Source: Bolinopsis microptera (taxonomy: Eukaryota > Ctenophora > Tentaculata > Lobata > Bolinopsidae). From it: DNA of 22,820 nucleotides. The position numbers and the translations under genes were made by a program. Position 1 is the first letter of the stretch. Every line of letters begins with the position of its first letter. Under the pieces are notes generated by a model that ran no database searches, was not told the origin of the DNA, and worked only from the letters and a program-made list of their open reading frames with translations. This document shows, in pieces, positions 48 to 22,820 of this stretch. The stretch is from assembly GCF_026151205.1 (NCBI RefSeq), contig NW_026971884.1:1-22820 (forward strand). Reading direction: 5' to 3'.

Positions 48-99
48 CATGATCCCCCTATAACAGCAGAAATTGAACATTTTATTTAGCAATTTAGGT

Positions 100-206: not shown

Positions 207-274
207 CCTTTTTGGATTCTATGAGACAAGCGGACATAGACGGACGTGACACCCCCCCCCCCAATGTACAAGGA

Positions 275-3200: not shown

Positions 3201-3864
3201 CAAAAATTGTATCTTTTGAGGAACTTTTAGTAGAATTTGATGGCATTGACGGCGTTGTTACAATAACGAGGGATACTCGAAAAGTTAAATTGTTCGAAGA
3301 TTCATACCTCCATCGTCGACAGTTTCCTATCAGTACCGGATACGCCCTTACCATCCACAAAGCGCAGGGCATGTCTCTGAGTCACGTGTTTTGCGACTTA
3401 GGCAGTATGATCTTTGCGACTGGTCAGATTTATGTTGCTTTGAGCAGGTGCAAGACTCTTGACGGACTTCATTTAGTCAACTTTGACGAATCACGGATAA
3501 CTGTTGACCGTCTGGCTATTAATGAGTATGTAAGACTCAAGAGTAAACCTATCATAGCAGCAGGGATCACTCTGAAGACTGATGACCAGCCAGAATCAAA
3601 CAAAAAGGGCAAGAAAAGACAGACGAAGAAGAAGAATGAGAGGATATGGTATGAAACCGACGCTGCAAAGAAGGCTAAAGCGACTGTGAATGATACCCTA
3701 AAGAATGACAAAAAGGATCAATCAAAAGCTCGCAAGAAAAAGCAGCCGGTTAAACCAAAGAAAACGAAGCCATCTACTGAGAGGAACTCAAGTTTAACAG
3801 CAGCTAATATCAGTGCACACATCAATCAGATCTACGTCGGAATTCCTGCTGAGTATATTCCGAC
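275..3864 (+). CDS. Helitron-type replicase-helicase, 5' part (interrupted by an LTR element)
   Basis: This is a rolling-circle transposase of the Helitron type. A Helitron_like_N stretch (ending near the GPPTFF segment) leads to the HUH motif, read as His-Phe-His at 695-703, and a paired-tyrosine motif YVTKYITK beginning at 1181. These are the metal-binding and DNA-nicking residues of the family. A PIF1-like SF1 helicase follows: Walker A GFGGTGKS at 2198-2221, Walker B DE at 2465-2470, a GD..QLPP motif near 2572, and the closing motif YVALSRC from 3431. A lysine-rich linker ends at the insertion point. The start is uncertain: the frame is open from 98, but that part is repeat. Usable ATGs lie at 128, 221 and 275, and the family normally has more N-terminal sequence, so an upstream exon or truncation is likely. 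The coding frame breaks at 3864, where the LTR begins, and continues at 15219. Sixteen or so residues after the junction (to the stop at 3914-3916) come from the LTR. Confidence 0.9.
3861..3864. repeat. Target-site duplication (left copy, CGAC)
   Basis: CGAC immediately precedes the TGTAGA start of the 5' LTR, and the same four bases follow the 3' LTR at 15215-15218. A 4-bp duplication is usual for Ty3/Gypsy integrases. Confidence 0.9.
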
Positions 3865-4673
3865 TGTAGACATCCAGTTCGCATGTGTATTTTCAATTTT
3901 AATTTTAGTTTCTTAATAATTTTAGTTTTTTATAGGAATCACGTAAAAGTTGTAAAGTTGAATGTGGAGCTGTGCCAACTGATTCCAGACTGATTTCTTA
4001 ACAGTACCTGATTCCATCTCCTGATTTTGGGACAAGAATTTGAATCTAGAACAATAAAATGATAAACCCACTTTAATCTCAAATCTTGAAATAGTGTTAA
4101 ATTCTTTAAAAGATCTCAAGTCATTCAAACTTGATCAAATAAGCGGAATCTTTCTCTGAACAGCATGACACAGTACGATACCAAATAATTGACAAATGAT
4201 TCATTAATGATTACGGCCAAAGCCCAGTCCTAAAAATAAAAATGAATACTGATATAACGATCAATTGTAAAGATAACGGAATTTAGGAGCTAGTTGTTCG
4301 ATGATTTGAAAGTGATTGATAAGCCGCAAGACGCGCAGATAATGATATTGTAAGCATGAAAATCGAATTATTGTCGAGACAAGAAAGCCCGAGGATAATA
4401 CCGGAAGCCCGAGATGATCGTCGGAGGAATAATTACAGAGATAAGCCCGATAATTGGACGTGTTTATAAAAGCTGAAATCAAGCAGCTCTAATCGGCACA
4501 GCCTAGTTTTATTTACAGAGAGTTTTTGTCAGTTTTGAAGAAATTAACAGCTAGCTCCCACTTTGTTACTGTTACTCTGTTATTTACACCACTTTATTCT
4601 TAATCAGTTTCTGAAAGTACTCGTTTCTATTAGTCCCACTTAGTCTTTGTCCAACAAAACCCTACAGCGCACA
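3865..4673 (+). repeat. 5' long terminal repeat
   Basis: The 809-base repeat starts with TG and ends with CA. It matches the copy at 14406-15214 at a constant offset of 10,541 bases, with no difference that I can find by eye. A TATA box at 4465-4471 suggests U3 covers roughly 3865-4495. AATAAA occurs at 4053 and 4235, both upstream of the TATA box; I see none in the part that should be R-U5. The LTR supplies the premature stop of the host reading frame (3914-3916). Confidence 0.97.
4385..4471 (+). promoter_or_regulatory. LTR promoter: three AAGCCCGA motifs and a TATA box
   Basis: AAGCCCGA occurs at 4385-4392, 4405-4412 and 4443-4450, just upstream of TATAAAA at 4465-4471. The same set is in the 3' LTR at 14926, 14946, 14984 and 15006. 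The spacing suggests transcription starting about 25-30 bases after the TATA box, near 4495. The repeated octamer is a candidate host-factor site; the factor is unknown. Confidence 0.6.
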
Positions 4674-4692: not shown

Positions 4693-4748
4693 ATTGAAGT
4701 TCTAAAGACTCCTGATCCCGAAGTTGGTAATAATTTCATCGATTGAAA

Positions 4749-6284
4749 ATGGCTTCCATTGAAGCACTTGAGCTGAGTACTGAAAAGAAAGCTGCCGTGG
4801 AGAACCTTATTATGCAAGCACAAAGGGAGGCTGCTGTGCAAGCTACTAACCAGGCCAAAGTTGACTTCAGAGCTGGAGTTGCTGGAAGTCGCCGGCCTAA
4901 TTCGTTTGACCCGACCACTTCTCACATTACTACGTATTTCGATAGCTTTGAACCTTTTCGGAGGATAATGAACCTTGAACGTGCTGAGGCAATTAATACT
5001 TTCCTGACTTATCTCGACCAAAAGTCACTAAATGCCTTGATTGCCAATGACCTAGTTAGGAAGGACGACTGGGCAGAATTTCGTAGAGATGCGATTACAG
5101 CCTTGACCTCCCCCAGTGAATCGGTCAAAGCAAGATACGAACTGAAAAAAGCTAAACAAAAACTGGATGAAACAGTGTCGGAGTTCGGAGAAAGACTTAT
5201 GGACCTGGCTAAATTAGGTTACACTGCTGATGAAGAAGACGCTATGCACTCCATTTTGAAAGATGCCCTGACTGGAGGATTGAACAGAGATGAAATTGCG
5301 GTTTCTTTGATAAATGAACCTGAGCTAGATTTTAAAACTGCTCTCGAAAAAGCCGTCAAGTTGGACGGAGCCTATAGGGCCAGGTCTTCGCTACGTGATG
5401 AAGATAATGTCCACGTCGCTGTTCTTAAAAATGAAGTTAGCATCGACAAGCATGAATCACTAGCCATAGGCGAAGCAGAACAGGCTAACAGACCTCACAA
5501 TCATTATCCAATGGGCCTGCCTCAATATACCGTCGGCCAATACGAGAGCCGCCTTGGAACAGAAAGTAGAGCAGTGCAGCAAAGCCAAGTCTATGGTATA
5601 GAACAAGGCTCAAATTACCATCCCCAGCAGTTCATAAATCAGCTGTCTTCTCACAATCCTGGTCAACCAGCTGATCCCAGATATGACCATCAGCCTCATG
5701 CTGGCAACTTAAGAGGCCAAGTACAGTGCCACAAGTGCTTTCAGTATGGTCACTACGCTAATCGTTGTCATAACAACTCGGGGGTCCAAAACCAAACCAG
5801 ATCCAACTCTAACGTAAGACGAAATAACAACAACCAGTGTCATTATTGTGGAATCTATGGCCACCTTCAAAGAGACTGTCGTAAAAAGATGAGAGACGAA
5901 GGTACTTGGAGCTCTGGTGGATTGAATGGACAAAGAGGACGGCCTAACTTCTCATCGCCAAGATATGGTAGACCTGGCAACAGCAGACCTGGTCATTTCT
6001 CGGAACAAGGACCCATCTACCAGGAACCTTATCAAAGCCCAGCCTATCAGCCAGGATACGATAACGGTTACAATAACAGAAGCTTCGCCACTACAAACGC
6101 ACCTGCAGCAGCACCACCAGCCAGTCATCCAGTGCACCAGCCGAACCAGAACAATGCAAGTAACCAGCACTACACTCCAAACAGTGGTCCTGTGGGAAAT
6201 CAGAACCCTGACCTGCGGAACACCCAACCTCAAGCAAACTACTCGGCTCCTTTCAATCCTACATCTGCGGTACCAAAAAACTAG
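4749..6284 (+). CDS. gag: Gag polyprotein with two zinc knuckles
   Basis: This is the structural protein that forms the retroelement particle and packages its RNA. It has 511 residues from the ATG at 4749; the frame is open for two codons upstream, but without an ATG. The first ~220 residues are helical and charged, as expected for a capsid region. Two CX2CX4HX4C zinc knuckles follow at residues 327-340 (nt 5727-5768) and 364-377 (nt 5838-5879), the nucleocapsid hallmark. The C-terminal tail is rich in Gln, Asn, Pro, Gly and Tyr and looks disordered. The stop TAG at 6282-6284 directly follows a -1 frameshift heptamer, so part of the product should be extended into Pol. A different ORF at 5926-6360 overlaps it in another frame and is regarded as a shadow. 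Confidence 0.93.
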   Translation: MASIEALELSTEKKAAVENLIMQAQREAAVQATNQAKVDFRAGVAGSRRPNSFDPTTSHITTYFDSFEPFRRIMNLERAEAINTFLTYLDQKSLNALIANDLVRKDDWAEFRRDAITALTSPSESVKARYELKKAKQKLDETVSEFGERLMDLAKLGYTADEEDAMHSILKDALTGGLNRDEIAVSLINEPELDFKTALEKAVKLDGAYRARSSLRDEDNVHVAVLKNEVSIDKHESLAIGEAEQANRPHNHYPMGLPQYTVGQYESRLGTESRAVQQSQVYGIEQGSNYHPQQFINQLSSHNPGQPADPRYDHQPHAGNLRGQVQCHKCFQYGHYANRCHNNSGVQNQTRSNSNVRRNNNNQCHYCGIYGHLQRDCRKKMRDEGTWSSGGLNGQRGRPNFSSPRYGRPGNSRPGHFSEQGPIYQEPYQSPAYQPGYDNGYNNRSFATTNAPAAAPPASHPVHQPNQNNASNQHYTPNSGPVGNQNPDLRNTQPQANYSAPFNPTSAVPKN

Positions 6285-6308: not shown

Positions 6309-9300
6309 AGAACACCGCTTCAGATTCGGTCTCTCCAGCTTCACAGGTCAATTTCTGTGAAGGCCACGTCTACTTGGACTCAAATCTGTTTGGCACCTCT
6401 GTAAACACTCTCGTAGACACTGGTGCTAGTATGAACTTGCTAAGTGAAGAGCTGGTTAGAAAGCAAGGATTGGTTCAGTATCTCGACAATGCTTCCTTCA
6501 AGCTGAGTGGAGTGTCCGGAGTACCTCTCCAAGTGCTAGGAGTTCTGAGAGGGGTCGATGTCACTATAAACGGTGTTCACTTTGAAGCGGATTTCGTAGT
6601 GACGTCCAAGATGAATGAGGACTGCATCCTGGGACAAAAGTTCTTTGAGAAATACAAGATGGTGATTGATTTTAATAACAAGACTATTGGTAACTCGTAC
6701 ATTTCAGCCCAACTTCACGAAAGACCGTCTCGTGATTCCGTGTTGTACCTGAGGAGTAAGGAGAACTGTCTCGTCTCCAGCATACTAACCATCCCATGTG
6801 AGTTACTCGATAAAGATGGTACCGTAGTTGAACACACAGGCTTTTACTACCTCGCTCCACATCCTGATCTGCAGTTGTTGACAGAACTGAGTGGTAAAGA
6901 GAGCTCAAACGGAACACCCATTTACATTGAGGATGGTTACACTGACCTTGCTATGTCTTGCGACGATGATGCTGAAATCTGGTTCCCTAAAGACTGTATC
7001 ATAGGAACCGTTCTACCTGATGTTCGAAGTGCCTACTTAGTAGAAAGTGAGGACATTCCTATACGTAACTGCGCAGATGGAGTTAAGAAAACTTACGGCT
7101 GGAATGATGACGATCCACGCAGAATAAAGATGATAGTTGAAGCCCTTGGAATACCCAATAATGACGTCCTTACAGAATCCGAAAAGATAGAAGCAGCCAA
7201 CCTCATAGCTGAGTTTCCTGATGTCTTCGCTCTCGATAGGAGTGAGTTGGGCTGCACATCTCTTGTCTATCACGAAATTCCCTTATCAAGTTCAGTTCCA
7301 GTTCAGACTAGTTATCGCAGAGTGCCCTTTCATTTGAAAAAAGATTGCGTTAGAGAGTTAGGAGAGCTCCTAGATGCGGGAATAATACAGCACTCCACTA
7401 GCAATTACAACTCACCTGCTATAATCCTGAAGCGCAAGGGGAAGACTAGAATTATCCTTGATTTTAGATTATTGAACAAGATATCCAGCCGAAGCTATTG
7501 TAGCATACCAGCACTGAATACTCTCACGGCCGGATGCTATGGAAAGCAGATCTTCTCCAACCTTGACATGAAAGACGGCTTCTTACAAATTCCCATTCTA
7601 CCCGCTCATCGCAAATACACTAGTTTCAGCATCCCTGGCGTTGGGTTCTATGAGTTCGCAAGAATGAGCCTAGGGCTCTGTGGAGGACCCAGCACATTTC
7701 AGAACCTACTGGAACGTCTCTTATGCAACATCGAAGACCCTGCAGTGGCCTCAGCCTATGTAGACGATATCCTGAGTGCAAGCGTGGATGTCAAAGGCAT
7801 GATGTCCAACCTCAGAACTATCTTTGAGAGAATCAGGGTATCGAACTTGAGATTCAACCCCTCCAAGTGTTCTCTATTCAAGAAGAAAATCAAGTGGTTA
7901 GGAAGCTACATCTCTGAAGATGGAATCGAGGCAGACCAAGAGAAGACCCAAGCAATCCTTGACATGGTCTTACCCAAAACACGCCGTCAAGTGCAGAAGT
8001 TCATCGGTGCTGCATCTTGGTTCAGACCTCACATCAAGAACTTTAGTGACTTGTTGAAGGGTCTCTCTGCAACATTGAAAGGGGACAAATTCAAGATGAC
8101 CACAGAAGCTGCTGAAAGTGTAGAAAAGATCAAGGCCGCTCTCACAAGCCCAGAAGTGCTCTGTTTCCCTTCTGAAGAACATGAATTTGTAGTGATGACA
8201 GACGCAAGCTCTTATTGCTGTGGCGGCACCATCGGCCATATGATAAATGACACCTTCAGACCAGTAGCTTTTGCCAGCAAAATCCTCACAGAGACTGAAC
8301 AACGGTACCCTTCCTATAAACGAGAGTTCTTAGCAGTCAAGCACTTCTTAAATCACTGGAGATATTACCTTCTAAACAAGCACTTTACTGTCATAGTTGA
8401 CATGAAGGCCATTACATATGACTCTTTCATGAAAAAGACTAACTGTGGTGTTATTCTACGCTGGATTCTTGAACTGAGCTGTTTTCATTTTACGGTAAAG
8501 TACCGTGAAGGCAGACTAATGGATTTGCCAGATGCTCTCTCAAGGTTACCATCCAAGTCAGATAAGCTGTACTCCTGGTGGGTCAAAAGATGCGAACAGT
8601 CCGTTGAAGAAACTAAAAGGTATCCTGAAGAAAGAACCGCTCCAGACGAAGAGACGGAAGATGAGGAATTTACATTGGCAACAGTGCAATTTGAAGACTT
8701 GCAGAAAGCGCTTCAATATGAACAACCACCACCTATGCTCCCTAACTCTGATTACGAAATTCATGAGCTAGATCTACCTGGGCTCTTCCCCTTCGACAGT
8801 GTGCTAGAATATACCAATGATCGTAACGAACAGTCGAGCACATCTACCGGAAATCAGCAGAACTCAGCAGACTGTGACCTCGAAACTGATTTGGAAAAGA
8901 GCCGTGAAACTGATGGTGAAACTCCAACTTTAAAAGTAGATTCTAACCTCACGACGGCTAACATTGCGGACAGTCTCTCTAACATTGGTAATGCTGGACC
9001 AAAGACGGCGTGCAACTCTCAGTCGTTGAACAAAGAGCTTAAAATACTAGGCGATAACAGACTTGCATGCAACAAGGACCCCATAGTGGTTAACACAGTG
9101 AATGATCAGACCTCCAGCTCATTAAGGGTATCTCCTAGCAACCATAGGGACGAAGATGAAAGTCACAACACCCACACTAATCAAACTGGTCAATTACCAT
9201 CAACTGAAAACACCAAAGATTGTAGTGAGAACCCTACACTCCAGGATGCAGATAACAGAGATTCAACTCAAATGGATACAGAGGTTACATCTACACAAGA

Positions 9301-10918
9301 TTCAGCAGCGAAAGGTAGCCCTGAGTTCAGGACGGGAAGTTTTGACAAGCCCTTGCTAGCGTATAACAGTAAAGCTGTACTGGAAGAGCAGCTTAAAGAC
9401 CTCGATCTCATGACGGTCCGAGAATGGCTGAAGGCTGGCGCAAGACCAAATAGAGAGATAAACCGATCTGGATACAGTGATGACCTCACACACTACTGGC
9501 ACTACTTTGAACATCTCTGCTTCAGTGCTGAAGGCGCGATCTGCTACAAATACTTCTACACCGTGTCAAAGAAGTTTCGCGAACTCCTCTGTGTCCCACA
9601 ACGATTGCTTGGAAAAGTGCTAGAAAATCACCACGACTCTGACCATAGTGGACACTTTGGACCAGTTAAGACACTTCACCGAATAAGAGAGAAGTATTAT
9701 TTCCCTGGGATGTCGAAAGTGATTAAAATATACTGCAACACATGTGAAACGTGCTTTCTAAACAATCATACATACCAAAAGAAACCAGCTGCACCTCTCA
9801 AGCTCTTCACAGCCAACAGGCCATCTCAATACGTAAGCACTGATCTGATTGGACCAATCAATGGTCCTTGCAGGTTCCGGTATATCAGGACTATAAAGGA
9901 TCGCTTCACCAAATTCGTACAACTCGTTCCACTAATTGACGGTACTGCAAATAGGATAGCCAGATCCCTCATGGACAACTGGATCTGGAAGTTCGGTGTG
10001 CCAGAACGACTGTTAACCGACAGAGCCAACAACCTTACTGGTGAAGTAATGCAAGAGGTCTACAAAATCCTATCTATCTATAAAATCCAAACGACCAGCT
10101 ATCACGCGAGAGGCAACGGAGATTGTGAGAGGGCCAACAAGGACATAGCCGTGGTGCTCAAAAAACTGGTTGCTGATAAGCCTTCCTCTTGGCCTGCTAA
10201 GCTAGATGCAGTTTCTTTTGCCATAAATTCAGCAATAAATGCATCTACCGGTCGTTCTCCAAACAAACTTCAGTTCGGACGTGAGCTACGCTCTCCGGGA
10301 GACCTCGTCTTCGACACTACCAGTACCGAGTTCTACAAATCAGGTGCTCATCTAGACAAAGCCTTGTACTACGATATTCGAGAGACGTTTGATCGTGTCA
10401 GGATCAAATTGGGTAACAGTCAAAAGATGCAGAAAACAGCCTATGATAAGAAGAAAAGCTTCCATACTACCTACAAAGAGAATGATCTTATCCTGGTGTG
10501 GAAACCACTTAGCCCCGCCATTAAGCACTTTCGAAAGTTTAAGAACTGCTACAGCGGACCTTGGAAGATTTTAAAGGTTCTGTCTTCATGGACCTACCTA
10601 GTACGACATGCGAAAACTAAAAAAGAAATCGTATGTCATTTTGACACAATGAAGCTCATCCCCATTGATCTGCGCCACAAGACTCATGTGCCCATTACCA
10701 CTACCGAGGAGATCCAGCCTAGTGGTAAAAATTACGTGGAAGCCAACAATATAGACGATAGCGAGATCACACAACTGATGTATGGCACTGTGACTAAAAC
10801 GCCACCTCCTCCTATCATTGCCGAACCAGATACCACTGAGGTTAGAACCAACGAAGCAGAATCATCAAATACTGGGTATTCTCTCCGTACTAGAAAAAGC
10901 ATCACTTATTCTAAATAA
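6281..10918 (+). CDS. pol: Pol polyprotein (protease, RT, RNase H, integrase), made by -1 frameshift
   Basis: This provides the enzymes for Gag-Pol cleavage, reverse transcription and integration. It has about 1545 residues in the -1 frame and no ATG of its own near the start. Numbering from 6281: aspartic protease DTGA at residue 46 (nt 6416); reverse transcriptase with YVDD at 493-496 (nt 7757-7768); RNase H with its first Asp at 641 (nt 8201) and a DALSRL end near nt 8533; an HHCC zinc finger at about 1117-1158 (nt 9629-9754); integrase D-D-E at 1188, 1247 and 1283 (nt 9842, 10019, 10127); and a GPY/F-like module (YSGPW) near nt 10550. I see no chromodomain. All expected catalytic residues are present and there is no stop or frameshift. 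An acidic, low-complexity insert of roughly 250-290 residues (nt ~8600-9400) separates RNase H from integrase, much longer than usual. Confidence 0.95.
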   Translation, partial: LGHPSPGGRENTASDSVSPASQVNFCEGHVYLDSNLFGTSVNTLVDTGASMNLLSEELVRKQGLVQYLDNASFKLSGVSGVPLQVLGVLRGVDVTINGVHFEADFVVTSKMNEDCILGQKFFEKYKMVIDFNNKTIGNSYISAQLHERPSRDSVLYLRSKENCLVSSILTIPCELLDKDGTVVEHTGFYYLAPHPDLQLLTELSGKESSNGTPIYIEDGYTDLAMSCDDDAEIWFPKDCIIGTVLPDVRSAYLVESEDIPIRNCADGVKKTYGWNDDDPRRIKMIVEALGIPNNDVLTESEKIEAANLIAEFPDVFALDRSELGCTSLVYHEIPLSSSVPVQTSYRRVPFHLKKDCVRELGELLDAGIIQHSTSNYNSPAIILKRKGKTRIILDFRLLNKISSRSYCSIPALNTLTAGCYGKQIFSNLDMKDGFLQIPILPAHRKYTSFSIPGVGFYEFARMSLGLCGGPSTFQNLLERLLCNIEDPAVASAYVDDILSASVDVKGMMSNLRTIFERIRVSNLRFNPSKCSLFKKKIKWLGSYISEDGIEADQEKTQAILDMVLPKTRRQVQKFIGAASWFRPHIKNFSDLLKGLSATLKGDKFKMTTEAAESVEKIKAALTSPEVLCFPSEEHEFVVMTDASSYCCGGTIGHMINDTFRPVAFASKILTETEQRYPSYKREFLAVKHFLNHWRYYLLNKHFTVIVDMKAITYDSFMKKTNCGVILRWILELSCFHFTVKYREGRLMDLPDALSRLPSKSDKLYSWWVKRCEQSVEETKRYPEERTAPDEETEDEEFTLATVQFEDLQKALQYEQPPPMLPNSDYEIHELDLPGLFPFDSVLEYTNDRNEQSSTSTGNQQNSADCDLETDLEKSRETDGETPTLKVDSNLTTANIADSLSNIGNAGPKTACNSQSLNKELKILGDNRLACNKDPIVVNTVNDQTSSSLRVSPSNHRDEDESHNTHTNQTGQLPSTENTKDCSENPTLQDADNRDSTQMDTEVTSTQDSAAKGSPEFRTGSFDKPLLAYNSKAVLEEQLKDLDLMTVREWLKAGARPNREINRSGYSDDLTHYWHYFEHLCFSAEGAICYKYFYTVSKKFRELLCVPQRLLGKVLENHHDSDHSGHFGPVKTLHRIREKYYFPGMSKVIKIYCNTCETCFLNNHTYQKKPAAPLKLFTANRPSQYVSTDLIGPINGPCRFRYIRTIKDRFTKFVQLVPLIDGTANRIARSLMDNWIWKFGVPERLLTDRANNLTGEVMQEVYKILSIYKIQTTSYHARGNGDCERANKDIAVVLKKLVADKPSSWPAKLDAVSFAINSAINASTGRSPNKLQFGRELRSPGDLVFDTTSTEFYKSGAHLDKALYYDIRETFDRVRIKLGNSQKMQKTAYDKKKSFHTTYKENDLILVWKPLSPAIKHFRKFKNCYSGPWKILKVLSSWTYLVRHAKTKKEIVCHFDTMKLIPIDLRHKTHVPITTTEEIQPSGKNYVEANNIDDSEITQLMYGTVTKTPPPPIIAEPDTTEVRTNEAESSNTGYSLRTRKSITYSK

Positions 10919-11467
10919 ATAAAAAAATCACGGAAAAAGAAAGCGCATGCTCAGTCTCTTGCAATTGTCTTTCGATCCTATTGACCTGACGGTCCTGGTT
11001 GTTCATCTGAAGCTGAGTCGGACGAGTCATCTGACTCACTGGAACTATTTACGTGTATAGTGTCCAGTATTTCCCCAGTCTTTTCATCCACCTGAAAAAA
11101 TGTAAGTTATCTCTCGAAGCAACAAAGACCTAAAAGAGGATGGCAAAGATTCCTCTACTAAAGACTAACAAAGACTCTACCAGATTGGGCTGTACCTTCA
11201 AGTAGTGGCTCTCCAATGAGGAGTTACTGCCCTTAAATTGTTGAGCACGTAGTAAATACTTGAGGGTCTACTCTTCTCTGTTACAGTAGTCATTTCATTT
11301 TAACTTTGTATACTGGGTTTGCATCACGATAAATCGATTAGCTTGTTCAAGTACCGCACAAGCAAATAGTGACGCAAAATTGTTGTAATGCAATGTTATA
11401 AAACAATACAGTAGTGATTCTGCCGACTAGATGTAATCAGACACTTCTAACCTCAAATCTCCTAAGG
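10919..11467 (+). other. pol-env spacer with candidate env splice acceptor
   Basis: There is no sense gene in these 549 bases. On the plus strand, a pyrimidine-rich tract ends in ACAG at 11286, a candidate acceptor for a spliced env mRNA; a matching donor upstream was not established. Short upstream ATGs (near 11390-11440) would precede the env start. On the minus strand, 10978-11091 is the terminal exon of the antisense gene. Confidence 0.45.
10978..11091 (-). CDS. Antisense gene, exon 3 (acidic serine-rich tail)
   Basis: 37 codons and a TAG stop follow a TTTTTTCAG acceptor. The second half is dominated by Ser, Asp and Glu, like many transactivation or casein-kinase-target tails. It sits in the pol-env spacer and does not overlap either sense gene. 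No AATAAA was seen on the minus strand in the ~100 bases downstream. Confidence 0.72.
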   Translation of the reverse strand: MDEKTGEILDTIHVNSSSESDDSSDSASDEQPGPSGQ

Positions 11468-14116
11468 ATGCTCTACCTACTACTCTTATGTATGGCAAAG
11501 ACCTACGTAATAGTGCAGACACTTAGCAAAGACACCGATCTCCACTTTCTCACCTCGGATTCACCCATTGTACATGAAGAACTAGGACTGGCCTTATTGC
11601 CCAGCAACTTATTGGCTCAAGGAAACGAAAACATATATCAATCAGTGTTTCTCACACTAGAAAATGTGGCACCCCCGTCAAAAGTCTGTGATTTGCCGTG
11701 TTCACCAAATAGCACTGTGATATCACGATTAGCTAACCAGGATGGATGTTGGATCGAACAGATGGTCATTGTAAAGTCATCCGTGGTTTCAGAGACCAAG
11801 AGGACTACAAAGGAAGAATGCATAGTGAAATGCCTTGCAGAGGCCCGATGCGGTGCTGTTGCTTACGACCAAGAGAACTCTCGATGTATCACCCTCACAG
11901 GGAATTATTATCGAGTAAATGCCATTGATTCCACATCCTCCTCTGCTACAGCCAAACTCAGCTGCCTCTTAGAAAATGAAAGAAAAACCAGATCACAAGT
12001 GTGCGGAGAGAGCAACGAACTATTTGACGTCATTCTCAACTCTATGACAACACAACATAACTTGATCATAACAAAATACATTCAAAAATACAAAGACGTC
12101 CGCAAAGGGTATGACCTTAACCTCACAACGGCCCATCCCACACTCAACATTGAAAAAAGATCCTGGGCAGATTTCGATTTTCTGGAAAGTATCCCTATAA
12201 TTGGCCACTTTTACGAAATCCTAAAAAGTCCCTCAGAAAATAGAAAACTCAAAGAACATATGCATCATATCACAAAACAGTTCGTTCAATTTGCTGCCCA
12301 AGTTAAAACGGAGTTACTGACTGCTAGAAAATTTGAGAATGAAATACTCGAAATTGTAGAAGCAGGCTTCGGGAAAATCTTCGAAGAGATTCAAGGCATC
12401 AAATGTGATGTGGCATCACTAGCTATACTGTCCATCTTTCAGCAAGCACTTAAAACACATCAGTCAAAACTTGATGAACTCTTTTATGCAACAAAACACG
12501 GTAAATTAACCGCTAGCCTGCCCCAGACACTTACACTTGAAGACCTTGATATGGTACTGGAGCAAAACCCCAACTTCAGAGACACTCTCTACGTCGCCCA
12601 CCCGGAAGTGCTATACAGGGTTGGCGAATTATACCTCATGGATGTCCGACAGAACGAGAAAAATCTACTCTTCCACTTTCTACTAACCACACCCAGACTG
12701 AAACCAGCTTCTCTCTTCAGAACATATTACCCAGTCCAAGTCCCAATAACAACTGCTGACAGCCAGTTGTGCTTCAAACCAGTCTTACCAGGTACCATTA
12801 TTATACAAGACGACAGCTTGGTAGCAGCAGACATTACAGACTGCACAATAAAAGAAGAGATCATCCTATGCCAACAGGATTTCGGCGACAATTTTTCACC
12901 CAATGTACAAAAGATACCCTGTCTCAATAATGAGCCGAATTTATGCACACTAGAGAGCGTACCTTGTGACACGACCATGCTCTTCACTAAAGCTGGAGCA
13001 CTAGTATACAGTGACGACGCTATTTTGGGTATGAACATAGGAGAAACTACTCAACTCACGGTACTAAATCAGGAACAAAAGTATTCCTATTTTTTCCCCT
13101 GGTCAACATACAAAATGATTCAATCTAATCAAAAGGTGATGTATTCTCTTGATAATGAACTGGTCGTTAAAAACCTCACTTGGAAGTCGGACAAAATATC
13201 CGTAGAATTCCACGAATTCGTCAAAGTGACATCAAATCAACAGCTCACAGCTAACATCACAAAACTCAAAGAAACACTGGATAATGTTACATCTCTTGCA
13301 AAAATGGATTTCAAGCCCGACTTTCTTGGTCTGGGAATCTCAAGAAGAAAATGGAATGACTTCACAGGCATGCTCTCGCTAGTGGTCACCATACTGTCAA
13401 TACTCAGCTTCATCTTCGTCTGTTGCTATAGCAGAATAAAGAAAAACAACAGACTCGTACGCACTGTTATGCAAACACTAAAACAGGAAAAAAGAGAACG
13501 TCGTGCTATAAGATACAACAACTCTACAGCGCTGCTCGAATCCCCGGAGGACAGACACTGGCCGAGAACACCTGAGATGAGACGGGCACAACAACATTCA
13601 AAGACAACTTCATTAAAGACGGAAGACGAACACATAACACCAGCAGCAGCCTCTACGAAAGAGCCACAATTCAACGAAGTTCGCACAATAACAGATGCTT
13701 ACGGATCACTTTAAGCATGAAATAGACACTTACCAAGCTGCTGAACAGCCGTTTAGTGTGGTGCACCACACCCTCCGAAATGCGTCGTGCATATTCTAAT
13801 TTCTGGGACACAAGGTGCATCCTCAGAAATTTAACCTCGTGCTCCAACTCATGCACTAATTTCTGAAGTCTTTCGACTTCGGTTACCCTGGACACCTGCA
13901 ACAAATGCAAAAGATAGTCCTCAAACTACTACATGGTAACAAACAGCAACCCTTCAAACTAACAAAAATACATTGCAGTAGTACACTACTCACTTCAGAC
14001 GGTTCCAGAGGCTCTACGCGAGCCACAGGTCGCCCACGCTCATCGATCACCTCGATGTCACTATTGGAACTTCTTCTTCGTTTCCTGCTCTTCCCCTTGT
14101 CGGGTGGTCCCGGCAT
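10978..14116 (-). CDS. Antisense spliced gene inside the retroelement: basic / leucine-zipper / acidic protein
   Basis: On the minus strand, three open segments are joined by near-consensus splice sites and all junctions are in phase 0: exon 1 14116-13994, exon 2 13895-13734, exon 3 11091-10978. Donors read GAA|GTGAGT and TTG|GTAAGT; acceptors read TTTGTTGCAG|G and ATTTTTTCAG|G. The predicted product is 132 residues: a Lys/Arg cluster at 9-15 (likely nuclear signal), a four-heptad coiled coil with Val/Leu at a and d positions (residues ~48-69), and an acidic serine-rich tail ending at a TAG. The ATG has a G at -3. Intron 1 is 98 bases; intron 2 is 2642 bases and contains all of env. I recognise no homologue. 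The basic-zipper-acidic design suggests a nuclear regulator or a partner of a host transcription factor, which is inference. A chance set of open frames is the alternative, but four good splice sites with matching phase argue against it. Confidence 0.78.
11468..13714 (+). CDS. env: Envelope-like glycoprotein with PAN/Apple-type module
   Basis: A putative type I membrane glycoprotein of 748 residues. The frame is open from ~11414, but the first ATG is at 11468, and it begins with a leucine-rich hydrophobic signal peptide (residues ~1-18). Cysteines at 94, 118, 122, 128, 140 and 166, with a T.EEC...C....C.A..YD pattern, match the six-cysteine PAN/Apple fold. A dibasic EKR at 229-231 before a hydrophobic stretch may be a cleavage site, but it is not a perfect R-X-X-R. 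Helical segments follow, then a transmembrane helix at about 634-653 and a basic cytoplasmic tail of ~93 residues ending in YGSL, a YXX-hydrophobic sorting motif. Position and architecture support an envelope; I cannot assign it to a fusion-protein class. A class assignment (for example baculovirus F-like) would need structure prediction. It lies wholly within intron 2 of the antisense gene. Confidence 0.85.
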   Translation: MLYLLLLCMAKTYVIVQTLSKDTDLHFLTSDSPIVHEELGLALLPSNLLAQGNENIYQSVFLTLENVAPPSKVCDLPCSPNSTVISRLANQDGCWIEQMVIVKSSVVSETKRTTKEECIVKCLAEARCGAVAYDQENSRCITLTGNYYRVNAIDSTSSSATAKLSCLLENERKTRSQVCGESNELFDVILNSMTTQHNLIITKYIQKYKDVRKGYDLNLTTAHPTLNIEKRSWADFDFLESIPIIGHFYEILKSPSENRKLKEHMHHITKQFVQFAAQVKTELLTARKFENEILEIVEAGFGKIFEEIQGIKCDVASLAILSIFQQALKTHQSKLDELFYATKHGKLTASLPQTLTLEDLDMVLEQNPNFRDTLYVAHPEVLYRVGELYLMDVRQNEKNLLFHFLLTTPRLKPASLFRTYYPVQVPITTADSQLCFKPVLPGTIIIQDDSLVAADITDCTIKEEIILCQQDFGDNFSPNVQKIPCLNNEPNLCTLESVPCDTTMLFTKAGALVYSDDAILGMNIGETTQLTVLNQEQKYSYFFPWSTYKMIQSNQKVMYSLDNELVVKNLTWKSDKISVEFHEFVKVTSNQQLTANITKLKETLDNVTSLAKMDFKPDFLGLGISRRKWNDFTGMLSLVVTILSILSFIFVCCYSRIKKNNRLVRTVMQTLKQEKRERRAIRYNNSTALLESPEDRHWPRTPEMRRAQQHSKTTSLKTEDEHITPAAASTKEPQFNEVRTITDAYGSL
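13734..13895 (-). CDS. Antisense gene, exon 2 (leucine zipper)
   Basis: 54 codons lie between a TTGCAG acceptor and a GTAAGT donor. Numbering within the exon, Val7, Leu10, Val14, Leu17, Val21, Leu24 and Leu28 follow the a/d heptad pattern of a dimerising coiled coil, then a basic stretch follows. It sits just past the env stop (13712-13714) and does not overlap env. Confidence 0.78.
13994..14116 (-). CDS. Antisense gene, exon 1 (basic N-terminus)
   Basis: There are 41 codons from the ATG at 14116-14114 to GAA, followed directly by GTGAGT. The segment is rich in Lys, Arg, Pro and Ser, with KSRKRRRSS as a probable nuclear localisation signal. Reading on past the donor gives a different, cysteine-rich peptide unlike the first 41 residues. 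Confidence 0.75.
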
Positions 14117-14320
14117 GTCGTGATTCAGAACACTGTATCAAGACACACAAAATCTATTGCAAATGTAACGCCACTGCAAGTGAACTGAACAGTTATTTTT
14201 AAAGACTTGAATTTACTGCCTAATGCAGCCCAAACAATGATTGACAGTTGAACCGATAATTGCACAGTTCCGACCTTGAATGTATAGAATTTTACAATCA
14301 TGTCATATGATGCCCTAAGA

Positions 14321-14327
14321 TTATATA
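14321..14327 (-). promoter_or_regulatory. Candidate TATA box for the antisense gene
   Basis: On the minus strand the sequence reads TATATAA, about 205 bases upstream of the exon 1 ATG and just inside the 3' LTR. It would give a start near 14295. Another possibility is antisense transcription from within the 3' LTR. A TTGCAG near 14181 on the minus strand could be an acceptor for a further 5' untranslated exon. Confidence 0.35.
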
Positions 14328-14395
14328 CTGGTCTCACTTTTATTTCTCAGTTTTTCAAAGACTGCAGAGAGGGATTTATTTTTAAGCTTTTCTAC

Positions 14396-14405: not shown

Positions 14406-15214
14406 TGTAGACATCCAGTTCGCATGTGTATTTTCAATTTTAATTTTAGTTTCTTAATAATTTTAGTTTTTTATAGGAATCACGTAAAAGTTGTAAAGTT
14501 GAATGTGGAGCTGTGCCAACTGATTCCAGACTGATTTCTTAACAGTACCTGATTCCATCTCCTGATTTTGGGACAAGAATTTGAATCTAGAACAATAAAA
14601 TGATAAACCCACTTTAATCTCAAATCTTGAAATAGTGTTAAATTCTTTAAAAGATCTCAAGTCATTCAAACTTGATCAAATAAGCGGAATCTTTCTCTGA
14701 ACAGCATGACACAGTACGATACCAAATAATTGACAAATGATTCATTAATGATTACGGCCAAAGCCCAGTCCTAAAAATAAAAATGAATACTGATATAACG
14801 ATCAATTGTAAAGATAACGGAATTTAGGAGCTAGTTGTTCGATGATTTGAAAGTGATTGATAAGCCGCAAGACGCGCAGATAATGATATTGTAAGCATGA
14901 AAATCGAATTATTGTCGAGACAAGAAAGCCCGAGGATAATACCGGAAGCCCGAGATGATCGTCGGAGGAATAATTACAGAGATAAGCCCGATAATTGGAC
15001 GTGTTTATAAAAGCTGAAATCAAGCAGCTCTAATCGGCACAGCCTAGTTTTATTTACAGAGAGTTTTTGTCAGTTTTGAAGAAATTAACAGCTAGCTCCC
15101 ACTTTGTTACTGTTACTCTGTTATTTACACCACTTTATTCTTAATCAGTTTCTGAAAGTACTCGTTTCTATTAGTCCCACTTAGTCTTTGTCCAACAAAA
15201 CCCTACAGCGCACA
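14406..15214 (+). repeat. 3' long terminal repeat
   Basis: The 809-base copy of the 5' LTR has the same length and, by eye, the same bases throughout, including the TATA box at 15006-15012. It is followed by the CGAC duplication and the resumed replicase-helicase exon. Confidence 0.97.
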
Positions 15215-15218
15215 CGAC
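15215..15218. repeat. Target-site duplication (right copy, CGAC)
   Basis: This matches 3861-3864. Keeping one copy of CGAC and dropping the element puts 3864 next to 15219 with the reading frame unbroken. Confidence 0.9.
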
Positions 15219-16467: not shown

Positions 16468-16614
16468 ATATCCTTATCATATAGTGAAATGATGTCTTAA
16501 CCTTGTCAGCTTTTATAACATCCCTAATCGTTGCTGTTAAATCATTTTCTTGAGCCGAAGGTGATGACGATTTGTCTTTAAACATGCAACTCATGTCTTT
16601 ATCTTTATGATAGT
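16468..16614. other. 3' flank of the protease gene
   Basis: AT-rich sequence between the stop codon and the first recognisable minisatellite unit. I see no convincing polyadenylation signal and no Helitron CTRR end with a hairpin. Confidence 0.4.
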
Positions 16615-19600
16615 GCGGACTACTTGTAATGGCACTATGTGTCCACTTAGCTTGTCTGCTATTATATGTTATTAATTGGGTGGTGGGCTACTTGTAAGGG
16701 ACACTAGGTGTCGACTTGGCTTGTGGTCTGCTATTATATGTTATTAATTGGGTGGTGGGCTACTTGTAAGGGACACTAGGTGTCGACTTGGCTTGTGGTC
16801 TGCTATTATATGTTATTAATTGGGTGGTGGGCTACTTGTAAGGGACACTATATGTGTCTACTTGGCTTGTGGTCTGCTATTATATGTTATTTATTGGGTG
16901 GTGGGCTACTTGTAAGGGACACTATATGTGTCTACTTGGCTTGTAGTCTGCTATTATATGTTATTAATTGGGTGGTGGGCTACTTGTAAGGGACACTAGG
17001 TGTTGACTTGGCTTGTGGTCTGCTATTATACGTTATTAATTGGGTGGTGGGCTACTTGTAAGGGACACTATATGTGTCTACTTGGCTTGTGGTCTGCTAT
17101 TATATGTTATTTATTGGGTGGTGGGCTACTTGTAAGGGACACTAGGTGTCGACTTGGCTTGTGGTCTGCTATTATATGTTATTAATTGGGTGGTGGGCTA
17201 CTTGTAAGGGACACTATATGTGTCTACTTGGCTTGTAGTCTGCTATTATATGTTATTTATTGGGCGGTGGGCTACTTGTAAGGGACACTAGGTGTCGACT
17301 TGGCTTGTGGTCTGCTATTATATGTTATTAATTGGGTGGTGGGCTACTTGTAAGGGACACTATATGTGTCTACTTGGCTTGTGGTCTGCTTTTATATGTT
17401 ATTTATTGGGTGGTGGGCTACTTGTAAGGGACACTAGGTGTCGACTTGGCTTGTGGTCTGCTATTATATGTTATTAATTGGGTGGTGGGCTACTTGTAAG
17501 GGACACTAGGTGTCGACTTGGCTTGTGGTCTGCTATTATATGTTATTAATTGGGTGGTGGGCTACTTGTAAGGGACACTATATGTGTCTACTTGGCTTGT
17601 GGTCTGCTATTATATGTTATTTATTGGGTGGTGGGCTACTTGTAAGGGACACTAGGTGTCGACTTGGCTTGTGGTCTGCTATTATATGTTATTTATTGGG
17701 TGGTGGGCTACTTGTAAGGGACACTATATGTGTCTACTTGGCTTGTAGTCTGCTATTATATGTTATTTATTGGGTGGTGGGCTACTTGTAAGGGACAGTA
17801 GGTGTCGACTTGGCTTGTGGTCTGCTATTATACGTTATTAATTGGGTGGTGGGCTACTTGTAAGGGACACTATATGTGTCTACTTGGCTTGTAGTCTGCT
17901 ATTATATGTTATTTATTGGGTGGTGGGCTACTTGTAAGGGACACTAGGTGTCGACTTGGCTTGTGGTCTGCTTTTATATGTTATTGATTGGGTGGTGGGC
18001 TACTTGTAAGGGACACTAGGTGTCGACTTGGCTTGTGGTCTGCTATTATATGTTATTTATTGGGTGGTGGGCTACTTGTAAGGGACACTAGGTGTCGACT
18101 TGGCTTGTGGTCTGCTATTATATGTTATTAATTGGGTGGTGGGCTACTTGTAAGGGACACTAGGTGTCGACTTGGCTTGTGGTCTGCTATTATATGTTAT
18201 TAATTGGGTGGTGGGCTACTTGTAAGGGACACTAGGTGTCGACTTGGCTTGTGGTCTGCTATTATATGTTATTAATTGGGTGGTGGGCTACTTGTAAGGG
18301 ACACTAGGTGTCGACTTGGCTTGTGGTCTGCTATTATATGTTATTAATTGGGTGGTGGGCTACTTGTAAGGGACACTATATGTGTCTACTTGGCTTGTGG
18401 TCTGCTATTATATGTTATTTATTGGGTGGTGGGCTACTTGTAAGGGACACTAGGTGTCGACTTGGCTTGTGGTCTGCTATTATATGTTATTTATTGGGTG
18501 GTGGGCTACTTGTAAGGGACACTATATGTGTCTACTTGGCTTGTAGTCTGCTATTATATGTTATTTATTGGGTGGTGGGCTACTTGTAAGGGACACTAGG
18601 TGTCGACTTGGCTTGTGGTCTGCTATTATATGTTATTAATTGGGTGGTGGGCTACTTGTAAGGGACACTATGTGTCTACTTGGCTTGTGGTCTGCTATTA
18701 TATGTTATTGATTGGGTGGTGGGCTACTTGTAAGGGACACTATATGTGTCTACTTGGCTTGTAGTCTGCTATTATATGTTATTTATTGGGTGGTGGGCTA
18801 CTTGTAAGGGACACTAGGTGTCGACTTGGCTTGTGGTCTGCTTTTATATGTTATTGATTGGGTGGTGGGCTACTTGTAAGGGACACTAGGTGTCGACTTG
18901 GCTTGTGGTCTGCTATTATATGTTATTTATTGGGTGGTGGGCTACTTGTAAGGGACACTAGGTGTCGACTTGGCTTGTGGTCTGCTATTATATGTTATTA
19001 ATTGGGTGGTGGGCTACTTGTAAGGGACACTAGGTGTCGACTTGGCTTGTGGTCTGCTATTATATGTTATTAATTGGGTGGTGGGCTACTTGTAAGGGAC
19101 ACTAGGTGTCGACTTGGCTTGTGGTCTGCTATTATATGTTATTAATTGGGTGGTGGGCTACTTGTAAGGGACACTAGGTGTCGACTTGGCTTGTGGTCTG
19201 CTATTATATGTTATTAATTGGGTGGTGGGCTACTTGTAAGGGACACTATATGTGTCTACTTGGCTTGTGGTCTGCTATTATATGTTATTTATTGGGTGGT
19301 GGGCTACTTGTAAGGGACACTAGGTGTCGACTTGGCTTGTGGTCTGCTATTATATGTTATTTATTGGGTGGTGGGCTACTTGTAAGGGACACTATATGTG
19401 TCTACTTGGCTTGTAGTATGCTATTATATGTTATTTATTGGGTGGTGGGCTACTTGTAAGGGACACTAGGTGTTGACTTGGCTTGTGGTCTGCTATTATA
19501 TGTTATTTATTGGGTGGTGGGCTACTTGTAAGGGACACTAGGTGTCGACTTGGCTTGTAGTCTGCTATTATATGTTATTTATTGGGTGGTGGGCTAATTG

Positions 19601-19750: not shown

Positions 19751-20291
19751 GGGGTCTGGGACTCAACAGCTTGAGACTCTACGGCGTGAGACTAGACTCT
19801 AACCCTAACCCTAACCTTAACCCTAACCTTAACCCTAACCCTAACCCTAACCCTAACCCTAGGGTTAGAGTAACTCTAATTTAACCTAACAGTAACCTAA
19901 CAGTAACCTAACAGTAACCTAACCTAACCTAACCTAACCCAACCTAACCTAACCTAACCTAACCTAACCTAACCTAACATAACCTAACCTAACCTAACCT
20001 AACCCAACCTAACCTAACCTAACCTAACCTAACCTAACCTAACATAACCTAACCTAACCTAACCTAACCTAACCTAACCTAACCTAACCTAACCTAACCT
20101 AACCTAACCTAACCTAACCTAACCTAACCTAACCTAACCTAACCTAACCTAACCTAACCTAACCTAACCTAACCTAACCTAACCTAACCTAACCTAACCT
20201 AACCTAACCTAACCTAACCCTAACCCTAACCAAAATCCTAACCTAACCCTAACCCGCCGTAGAGTCTTACGCCGTAGAGCTTCCCGACCCC
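19751..20291. mobile_element. Short inverted-repeat element filled with telomere-like repeats
   Basis: The 541-base element begins GGGGTCTGGGA and ends TTCCCGACCCC, the imperfect reverse complement. Subterminal copies of CTCTACGGCG lie inside both ends in inverted orientation (near 19777 left; 20254-20280 right, twice). An 8-base duplication flanks it. It has no coding capacity, so it is a non-autonomous DNA transposon. The 8-base duplication fits hAT, P, Merlin and some others; the ends do not let me choose. Confidence 0.7.
19798..20254. repeat. Telomere-like arrays (CCCTAA)n and (CCTAA)n
   Basis: (CCCTAA)n with a few CCTTAA variants runs from about 19798 to 19861 and then flips into AGGGTTAG. 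Three copies of an 11-base TAACCTAACAG unit follow, then about 300 bases of CCTAA (the TTAGG type), returning to CCCTAA near 20217. It lies inside a transposon-like unit and is not a chromosome end. Confidence 0.95.
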
Positions 20292-20560
20292 GGTACAGTG
20301 TACACTTTGAAAATTTTGCTTTGTGCTTGCTCAACAGTAAAATCGGAGGTCTTGCTGCTCGTCAAGGTCTTTTAGCAATATTCGAAGTTCTCTTTTGTGC
20401 TTTAGTGATTTAAAAACTAATCAGCTGAATAGAATAACATTCAAAATATTTTAGATTTATTTGATAGTTCAGATTTATATTAATTGTTAGAAAGGAAATT
20501 GTTTTGTTCACATCGAGAGTTTAGTTTTATAATTTTGCAATATTTTCAGGAACCATAAGC
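20292..20560 (+). pseudogene. Diverged partial copy of the Ulp1-like protease exons
   Basis: From the GTACAG acceptor at 20293-20298 the sequence parallels 15991-16094: it shares the GTACAG...CACTTTGA start, the TTGCTTGCTC-ACAG middle and the GCAATAT-C-GA-GTTC end. The following intron-like stretch shares CAAAATATTT...TTATTTGATAGTT with 16165-16196 and ends in TTTTCAG near 20549, like 16214-16223. The catalytic Asp position reads Glu and the frame afterwards soon stops, so it is probably a decayed paralogue. The match is by eye and could be weaker than it looks. Confidence 0.45.
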
Positions 20561-21252
20561 CATTTTAGCGAGGGAAAACGAACTACACAACGAACTTTAA
20601 AACTCGCCGAAGTCCACAAACATTTATACGCAATTACCGAACTGTTACAGTACGTTTAGCCGACTAAGCGAAATAAATTATTGTATTGACTATCTTATAA
20701 ATAGAATGGTATTTAATCACTCAACTATCAGTATCACGTGACTTACTTTAATAGTAATACGTTCTTTAGTTGGCCTTGGGAAGGGACTATATAATTACTT
20801 ACCTCGGGTAGCTTTTTAAATTTTGACACATGCGGGGAGACTCAATCGGTTTGATATTCATGATAACACATATTTACTGATGATTGATTTACAGAATTTA
20901 AAATTACAATATGGTTTATACTTTAATATGTTATGTCACAAATTACCATTTCTCAGTTACAATAATTTTTGTGTCTAACTGCTTCTAATGTTGCCTCTTT
21001 ATTACTGTTAACTGTTTGAACAGTTTTCCATCGCCAATGAAATATGAACTGACCTGGTGCAGGCTATTATATGTTGAATCACTTTGTCTGGTGTCAACAA
21101 TATTTCAAAAGAATGTTTACAAGTATGAAGTAATATTCGTCTATTTAAACTAATATTTTCGGTAGTAATTATCATTCTCAGTGTAAATACTAAAATTTAA
21201 TAGTGGAGAGTCATAATTTTCTTAGTCGGTTTTAGACCAAAAAAATGTGATA
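20561..21252. other. AT-rich stretch without recognisable genes
   Basis: No open frame with recognisable content, no tandem repeat and no RNA gene was seen. Confidence 0.5.
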
Positions 21253-22609
21253 TTTTAACCAAAACCCAAACATTGGGTAGGATTGAGCGTTGTAAATGTG
21301 TGTGCATGCAGGGCAAAACTAAAGTGTGATCAAGTAACTTAATTATATTCGTTATAACTCCAGTTCCACGATACAATGTGAAATAAAGTAACTCTTTATA
21401 TAAATTACATAGATAGTTAATAAAACGAATAGAAGATGTGATATAAAAAAGTGACCGTTCTTGTCCCGTCACAGCGCTCGCTTGCTTTGACCGTCATGTC
21501 ACCAAATCATGAATTTAAAACGTCAGGCCTAGTCCTATCAATAATTATGAAAATAATGAAATTTACTAGTCAATTGCTAACATAAAAGAGACCGTGAAAT
21601 ATCCGGATCGGAACAATATGTATTACTATTAGTCACATAGTCGTTCTGTTCCTAGGTTAAATTTGTATTGATCCAGTTTATTGCCACAAGGCTGTTATCA
21701 TTTCCTGATAACAGCTTTTTCCTTGTTGCAATAAACGGGATCAATACAAATTGTATCTAAGTATAGTACAACAAATACCAATCATCATAATTAAAGTAAC
21801 ATTTTGATTTTCCATGTGTCACACTGATTTATCCATTATATTTTACCTAACCTATATTTGTGTGCTCTGGTATAAAATAAATTAAAGTCGGGCTTCATAA
21901 AACTCCAAAAATATAATAGCTAACTAAGCTCAGTTAAGATTAAAAATATGCATACTCGATTTTATCTTTTGTATGGTCAATGATCATTGTGCAGTACATA
22001 AACTCTTTTAGTTCCTTTGGTGCCCAGTAACAATTGGTTTCACTAACTCAGTTCATAACTTTATGCGGTCAGTCTAAACTCTAGGGAAATCTAAACTATA
22101 AGCTTTAAAGTAACTCTCAATGATCGCTTTTGTTTTAAATTGGGAATAGAATTAATTTAATTGTGATTTATGACAAAAATAATTTTAATTTCATTTTGTA
22201 ACGTTTAGACAAATACAGACATTTTCTATGAACATAGTTAGATTTATAAATCGTTCGGATTAGACTTTTACTAGTAGTACTATACTACAATAACAAGTTT
22301 TTATTCTGCTGTAAAAATACCACTTCTTTCAAATCGAATAAATTTTCGTGAGTGATTTGGTGACATGACGGTCAAAGCAAGCGAGCGCTGTGACGGGACA
22401 AGAACGGTCACTTTTTTATATCACATCTTCTATTCGTTTTATTAACTATATATGTAATTTATATAAAGAGTTACTTTATTTCACATTGTATCGTGGAACT
22501 GGAGTTATAACGAATATAATTAAGTTACTTGATCACACTTTAGTTTTGCCCTGCATGCACACACATTTACAACGCTCAATCCTACCCAATGTTTGGGTTT
22601 TGGTTAAAA
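21253..22609. mobile_element. Fold-back / inverted-repeat element with 257-bp arms
   Basis: The left arm 21253-21509 and right arm 22353-22609 are reverse complements over 257 bases with about one mismatch seen (ATAGATAG versus ATATATAG). The ends are TTTTAACC and GGTTAAAA, each flanked by TA, which would suit a Tc1/mariner-type TA duplication. The 843-base centre has no coding capacity. Open frames in each arm (minus left, plus right) are nearly the same peptide because the arms are copies. Confidence 0.75.
21660..21752. repeat. 93-bp imperfect palindrome (hairpin)
   Basis: AATTTGTATTGATCC at 21660-21674 pairs with GGATCAATACAAATT at 21738-21752. GTTTATTGC/GCAATAAAC and ACAAGG/CCTTGT continue the stem, and GCTGTTATCA/TGATAACAGC closes it around a 5-base loop. 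It lies in the centre of the fold-back element. It may be a nested small inverted-repeat transposon or a hairpin RNA source. Confidence 0.8.
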
Positions 22610-22820
22610 TAAATATATATAAATACTAGTGCCCGCGGGGTGATTAAAAATTACGCTCATTTTTTCCCAAAAATACCAATATCTTAGTACGTGATTTTGG
22701 TGAAAGTGACTTTTCTCAAAGCATATTTTTTAAACCCTCTCATAAGTGTGATAATCAGGTGTCTTAAAAATCATACCAGAGCGTTGAAATCTAATCTGCA
22801 TAGTCTGGAGTCCGGATGTC
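22610..22820. other. Right edge, no recognisable feature
   Basis: AT-rich sequence after the fold-back element. I see no open frame, repeat or RNA gene here. Confidence 0.5.

Follow-up and report, generated by a model that had tools for sequence, protein, structure and literature searches.

Described antisense genes of retroelements that come closest to the one reported here belong to deltaretroviruses and to plant and fungal Ty3/gypsy elements. HBZ of human T-cell leukemia virus type 1 (HTLV-1) and the APH proteins of HTLV-2, HTLV-3 and HTLV-4 are small antisense products that are spliced and expressed from the 3' long terminal repeat (LTR) end; HBZ is a basic leucine zipper (bZIP) protein and contributes to persistence (PMC10186651). 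Antisense open reading frames (ORFs) are also known from the plant elements Grande, RIRE2, Retand and PvRetro13 and the fungal element Boty; the Grande gene23 protein is nuclear and its gene has its own upstream promoter, and the antisense ORF of Retand encodes TRP28 (PMC7264820; PMC11963269). For the plant proteins a role in nuclear import has been discussed, and the antisense RNAs of Drosophila micropia are noncoding (PMC7264820). In the Drosophila MDG1-group, small accessory ORFs lie upstream of gag and are of a different kind (PMC11952523). Env-bearing gypsy elements have been reported from ctenophores and other non-bilaterian animals (Chary and Hayashi, eLife 2025, as cited in PMC12859917). 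A full-length element of the same kind, likewise env-bearing and from a ctenophore, lies in contig NW_026971884.1 of Bolinopsis microptera (C125 of the 264.65 Mb assembly), whose entire 22,820 bases were analysed and are called the window here. The gag, pol and env ORFs of this element are all open, and its minus strand very probably carries a further, real coding gene, to judge from the sequence comparisons that follow.

Three minus-strand exons join in frame, with phase 0 at both junctions, to encode a protein of 132 amino acids:

13994..14116, minus strand: antisense exon 1, 123 nt, 41 codons; has the ATG and encodes the basic cluster KSRKRRR
13896..13993, minus strand: intron 1, 98 nt, GTGAGT...TTGCAG
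13734..13895, minus strand: antisense exon 2, 162 nt, 54 codons; encodes a coiled coil
11092..13733, minus strand: intron 2, 2642 nt, GTAAGT...TTTTTTCAG; encloses the complete env ORF of the opposite strand
10978..11091, minus strand: antisense exon 3, 114 nt, 37 codons and the stop; encodes an acidic serine-rich tail

This gene had been proposed in a preliminary description of the window, and its exons (14116-13994, 13895-13734 and 11091-10978), ATG, GTGAGT and GTAAGT donors, CAG acceptors, phase and stop were all reproduced exactly. It also holds that the exons occupy gaps used by neither pol nor env, as the pol ORF ends at 10918 and the env ORF extends from 11414 to 13714. A gene-like structure of this kind is by itself uncommon in resampled sequence: when the region was resampled by a first-order Markov model, a three-exon gene with 120 or more amino acids turned up in one out of 200 cases, under splice rules chosen post hoc when the gene had already been seen. 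The real region gave six such models.

Relatives were searched in the same genome. With the window included, 7 loci were found by the DNA of exons 1 and 2, 9 loci by the DNA of exon 3, and 32 places by the protein at E values up to 10. Clusters of copies lie on C11 (0.76-0.92 Mb), C9 (3.09-3.11 Mb) and C2 (7.04-7.13 Mb). Exons 1-2 were aligned in 13 rows and exon 3 in nine, without the C11 copy situated near 909 kb. In C9a and C11_913 exon 1 is unusable, and C11_913 is also gapped at acceptor 1. In the four remaining C11 copies the alignment of exon 1 passes through a frame change or an early stop; these exons were excluded from the site-shuffle test, which for exon 3 covered four of the six C2 copies and left out C9b and C12. 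The rows are related by descent, so that the tests against the window are not independent of each other, and most copies were found via the exons themselves, which makes the sampling circular.

In the site-shuffle test, amino-acid changes relative to the window were below expectation in all 18 comparisons, with P<0.05 in 17 of them and a highest value of 0.061. Changes were in excess at third codon positions at P<0.05 in 16 of the 18 comparisons and at P<0.001 in 13, spread over all three exons. For instance, exon 1 of C9b shows one amino-acid change where 7.3 are expected, and its nucleotide changes are distributed 2/0/9 over the first, second and third positions (third positions 9 of 11). 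For exon 2, C9b has 10 amino-acid changes (expected 19.6), C9a 19 (27.9) and C11_772 22 (32.9), with changes by codon position of 7/4/20 in C9b and 9/12/26 in C9a. For exon 3, C2_2 has 10 changes against 14.9 expected; five C2 copies give 6/2/15 or 6/3/15 by position and the sixth 6/2/14. The ratio of nonsynonymous to synonymous substitution rates (dN/dS, method NG86) was computable for 12 of the 18 comparisons, lying between 0.02 and 0.22 in 11 and at 0.36 for exon 2 of C12; the other six (exon 1 of C8 and exon 2 of five C11 copies) gave no value as dS was saturated. Intron 1 and the leader showed no clear codon periodicity in the five rows tested. Amino-acid identity of exon 2 to the window is 52-63% in C9a and four C11 copies, and L51, V55, L58, L65 and L69 are invariant in a seven-row alignment of this exon. 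As far as substitution patterns can tell, these comparisons show the three exons, their frame, most splice sites and the coiled-coil core to have been kept by selection across several element lineages.

A separate observation concerns the distribution of divergence, which is mosaic and centred on the antisense exons (13734-13895 and 13994-14174). The window and C12 differ at 14 of 162 positions in exon 2, 13 of these at 13822-13892, and at none of 98 in intron 1; the window and C9b differ at 31 of 155 and 1 of 98 positions, respectively. Likewise, the copies at C2:17.1 Mb and on C8 show 21 differences over 116 positions of exon 1 and none over the 98 of intron 1. This looks like exchange tracts between lineages.

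The splice sites were followed through the same rows. Donor 2 is GTAAGT in all nine rows holding the site and acceptor 2 is CAG in all nine aligned rows, the window included in both cases. At donor 1, seven of 13 rows have GTGAGT, one has GTGTGT, four, all of them short elements, have GGGAGT, and one is unalignable; at acceptor 1 there are nine CAG, three CCG and one gap. The frame of exon 3 and its GPSGQ-stop end are kept in the window, in C12 and in five of the six C2 copies, and are broken in C9b and one C2 copy. The conservation that had been suggested as a check was found for selection, with dN/dS below 1 in 12 of 12 computable comparisons, and for most splice sites; it failed for the frame or stop of the two copies just named and for donor 1 of the short elements. 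The NCBI protein LOC134821114 (P0001, 106 amino acids) is an exact splice of the C9 exons 1 and 2 and an exon 3 that lies at C9:3,112,710, with junctions homologous to those of the window; it is a gene model, and its value lies in the fact that the NCBI annotation picked homologous junctions. Two ENA records contain parts of the gene. P0018 (four member sequences, the longest contig having 737,721 bases) shares 37 of 59 residues (63%) with exon 2 and has an in-frame insertion of two amino acids. It is likely from another species, because its best-scoring match in this genome is only 64% identical and the most similar one, which is partial, 69%. P0002, a contig of 598 bases, matches exon 1 with 74% identity over 35% of the query. 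Sites that are mostly conserved, together with an NCBI model that uses them, are consistent with splicing of the predicted antisense transcript.

The basic cluster and the acidic serine-rich tail of the predicted protein are as first described, while the four-heptad leucine zipper is not: three leucines follow the L-x6 spacing (L51, L58 and L65), with V48, V55, V62 and L69 at the a positions of the coiled coil. A bZIP identity was rejected, since two bZIP signature patterns were unmatched, 36 residues lie between the basic run and the first L-x6 leucine, and Pfam gave no bZIP family up to E 1. No Pfam family scored above its cut-off; CCDC106 (PF15794) gave a weak match spanning coiled coil and tail (E 0.0073, 16.6 bits against a cut-off of 30.2). 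A search of solved structures likewise gave nothing significant, the best hit being an engineered protein (E 0.034), and the bZIP chain MafG reached only E 0.48. The TRP28 domain is not listed for this protein at Pfam E values up to 1, unlike in Retand, and the gene shares neither bZIP nor TRP28 with known antisense genes.

The proposed resemblance to HBZ therefore holds for the layout, but not for the domain, as there is no contiguous bZIP. Both genes are small and run antisense to gag, pol and env; the present one has its predicted splice sites, lies beside env and the 3' LTR, and combines basic, coiled-coil and acidic parts, as HBZ joins basic, zipper and acidic parts. HBZ, too, has an acidic part. 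On the other hand, Deltaretrovirus belongs to another virus family, and here three exons are used, env lies within an intron and the candidate promoter is beside the LTR and not within it; the missing bZIP is a difference from HBZ that APH shares. The antisense gene is, at most, an analogue of HBZ. With Grande gene23, RIRE2, Retand TRP28 and Boty it has in common the position between pol and the 3' LTR and the conservation within a family; however, splicing is unmentioned for these in the portions of the literature at hand, and none of them, as described there, lies around env in an animal element. The preliminary description knew of no antisense spliced gene in Metaviridae. Antisense ORFs as such do exist in plant and fungal elements, but within the same portions our literature search, too, met no spliced one, and in animals only the noncoding micropia RNAs.

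Upstream of the gene lies a block that is far more conserved than the exons themselves:

14176..14331, minus strand: conserved noncoding block with a TATA-like motif at about 14327; candidate core promoter and 5' leader of the antisense gene

From 14331 to 14176 three C11 copies are identical to the window at 139 of 156 positions and a fourth at 124, whereas in the same four copies the flank toward the LTR is identical at only 29-31 of 66 positions and exon 2 at 101-105 of 162 (62-63% in three). In the window the TATA-like motif is TATATAA; six of the ten rows have TATAAAA, and three carry TATAGAA or AATAAAA. The block has 15 matches in the genome. It fits a candidate core promoter and leader of the antisense gene, and is situated outside the 3' LTR; another TATA-like site is found inside the LTR, at 14475.

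From the matches found, the gene looks restricted to one clade of elements. Four short elements (L020, L021, L022 and L023, on C10, C1, at C2:17.1 Mb and on C8) contain gag, a stub from the beginning of the protease and sequence of exon 1, and no matches to reverse transcriptase (RT), integrase or env were found in them. Donor 1 is lost in all four and the ATG in two; exon 2 is shortened to 16 codons in three according to tblastn, and the fourth looks alike in the alignment. The LTR pairs are identical in two of the four and differ by a single mismatch in one. Short elements with a lost donor 1 yet identical LTRs indicate that recent copying can proceed without the gene in cis, which fits either a product acting in trans or a dispensable one. 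A sister env family, with env identities of 41-46%, was searched at three loci over about 2 kb on the 3' side of env, and over a single stretch of 1.6 kb upstream of env; with the threshold at E 0.05 the gene had no match in any of these. When E values up to 10 were allowed, only short matches were seen at one locus, the best of them to 12 residues of exon 1 (E 0.034). In this family (L047, L049 and L050) a sense ORF of 425-434 amino acids with basic repeats follows env, which may be a different accessory gene at the same place. The loci of the C2 cluster contain the pol-env gap with exon 3 only, without an LTR, exon 1-2 or env match. Here, repeated units (L024:2266-6127, L025:2160-2264 and L026:2193-6361; about 1.9 kb apart in L024) hold the pol-env gap, exon 3 and its acceptor, and those of L024 lie downstream of a different minus-strand ORF of 136-173 amino acids, where exon 3 may have been reused by a second gene.

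Several results weigh against a selected, expressed antisense gene or against parts of its proposed function. All three exons are intact in only two of the examined copies, the window and C12, and the integrase region of C12 is split by about 1.1 kb. Ranked by RT identity, both copies at 100% carry the gene intact, but the next relative among the matches listed, at 72%, has a pol-env gap without an exon 3 match. In the two stretches searched of this relative nothing was found beyond a match of 8 residues (E 0.98), and its env match stops at residue 498, so that its 3' part is uninformative on the gene. Among the NCBI models recovered by the protein search there is none for either intact copy, and the C9 copy behind LOC134821114, its frame being broken after the coiled coil, is no working gene. 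The closest competing frame, the sense one with the same third positions, has dN/dS values of 0.15-0.52, hence also below 1, although higher than those of the antisense frame in all 12 comparisons giving a ratio. C12 is exceptional in that exon 1 has a P value of 0.06, exons 1 and 2 show no significant third-position excess, and just 5 of the 14 changes in exon 2 fall on third positions. The intron of C11_919 has 2/4/7 changes by phase, and two control cells hold 0 or 1 change. Two pairs of C11 copies, when compared with each other, look neutral (four amino-acid changes in five substitutions, and six in nine); we read these as dead copies. With regard to the promoter, folding is better than in shuffled sequences for the block's sense RNA (z -2.42, 4 of 200) but not for its antisense RNA (z 0.00), and the short elements retain the block without a working gene. 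Judged by this folding and retention, the block could serve the sense strand. Finally, it is only from the composition of the protein that a nuclear location, dimerisation and regulation are deduced.

We slightly favour the full account, in which this is an antisense accessory gene whose product acts in trans on the expression of the element. A TATA-type promoter located 75-230 bp away from the 3' LTR would initiate transcription, which would run leftward, and splicing would remove the 2.6 kb intron 2 together with env. Judging from composition, the 132-amino-acid product would be a small nuclear protein with the basic cluster as nuclear signal, would dimerise via its V/L coiled coil and would bear an acidic tail. 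Acting in trans in an HBZ- or APH-like manner, it would most likely tune sense transcription or RNA handling. Rather unlikely, by comparison, is that the gene is real and its product something other than a transcriptional regulator, for instance a factor for nuclear entry of the integration complex or one countering host defence. Basic cluster, coiled coil and acidic tail suit many nuclear roles, nuclear import has been discussed for the plant antisense proteins (PMC7264820), and the fast divergence of exon 2 (52-63% identity in the five copies mentioned) would fit an arms race. However, no domain match favours any single role, the coiled-coil core is invariant in seven rows, and dN/dS is below 1 in all 12 comparisons giving a ratio. 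That the antisense RNA itself is active, its env-containing intron pairing with env RNA while the protein is of little weight, appears quite improbable: intron 2 is indeed the complement of env and its flanks, but selection acts on the amino acids of the exons, and RNA pairing alone gives no codon-phased pattern.

It is improbable, too, that the locus represents a host gene or its capture, with the C9, C11 and C2 clusters being a host family of which the element carries a copy. The clustering of the copies and the C2 loci, where exon 3 and the pol-env gap stand without LTR, env or exon 1-2 matches, would speak for this, as would the weak, sub-cut-off match to CCDC106. Yet an antisense match to the env tail lies next to exon 2 in four of five C11 loci, an LTR match is present in four, and C9 has both; the C11 and C9 loci are therefore remains of elements. 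A genome search with CCDC106 gave two single matches and one combined match above the cut-off elsewhere, and the exons are not among the 30 matches listed. An origin from CCDC106 was rejected on these grounds, the match in the window being below the cut-off and P0001 having no Pfam match to this family. Pure chance, an open antisense path noticed by eye, is exceedingly improbable. Consensus splice sites are common, and one of the 200 resampled controls did yield such a structure, but chance is contradicted by the between-lineage test, with its third-position excess at P<0.001 in 13 of 18 comparisons and in all three exons, and further by the retained splice sites, the matching NCBI model and the presence of exon 2 in another record.

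The remaining features of the element lie on the plus strand:

3865..4673, plus strand: 5' LTR, 809 bp, identical to the 3' LTR
4743..6284, plus strand: gag ORF; two zinc-knuckle matches, each under the Pfam cut-off
6374..10918, plus strand: pol ORF; protease, RT, RNase H and integrase zinc-binding domain; integrase core under the cut-off
11414..13714, plus strand: env ORF; PAN domain above the cut-off; first ATG at 11468
14406..15214, plus strand: 3' LTR, 809 bp

The layout is that of Metaviridae (Ty3/gypsy), with LTRs, gag, and pol in the order protease-RT-RNase H-integrase, the gag and integrase-core matches being below their cut-offs. The sequence CGAC flanks the element on both sides (3861-3864 and 15215-15218). 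Env matches the paramyxovirus fusion glycoprotein weakly (PF00523, E 0.0016, under the cut-off), as it does F protein in the PDB (E 0.012 at best); six of 15 env relatives carry a precomputed PF00523 annotation, and a relative in Mnemiopsis leidyi is 52% identical to the env of the element. The env tail (13694-13714) ends in DAYGSL, and DAYGS or DAFGS is common to seven of ten aligned env proteins, the window included. Among viral contigs searched with the env alignment, ten pattern matches were obtained and none was confirmed. Elsewhere in the window, the 5' LTR is inserted into the end of a Helitron (Rep/helicase) ORF at 98-3916. A tandem array with spacings of 72 and 74 bases (41 copies) extends over 16559-18968 and beyond, a perfect inverted repeat with arms of 259 bases and 843 bases between them lies at 21251-22611, and arrays with a spacing of 10 bases are located at 79-218 (TGTCCGCCTA) and 19850-20304. 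Rfam and transfer RNA scans of the window gave no matches.

Antisense accessory genes have so far been described from deltaretroviruses (PMC10186651) and, as unexplained ORFs, from plant gypsy elements (PMC7264820). We put forward tentatively, without quite favouring it, the wider claim that in an env-bearing gypsy element of a ctenophore a nuclear coiled-coil regulator, antisense and spliced, has arisen independently of those of the deltaretroviruses, with its own promoter beside the 3' LTR and env in a large intron; it would be the first in animal Metaviridae. If this is true, antisense regulation of an env-bearing element would be a recurrent solution, and one could ask, in animals that can be cultured and sequenced, whether env-bearing retroelements tend toward antisense control.

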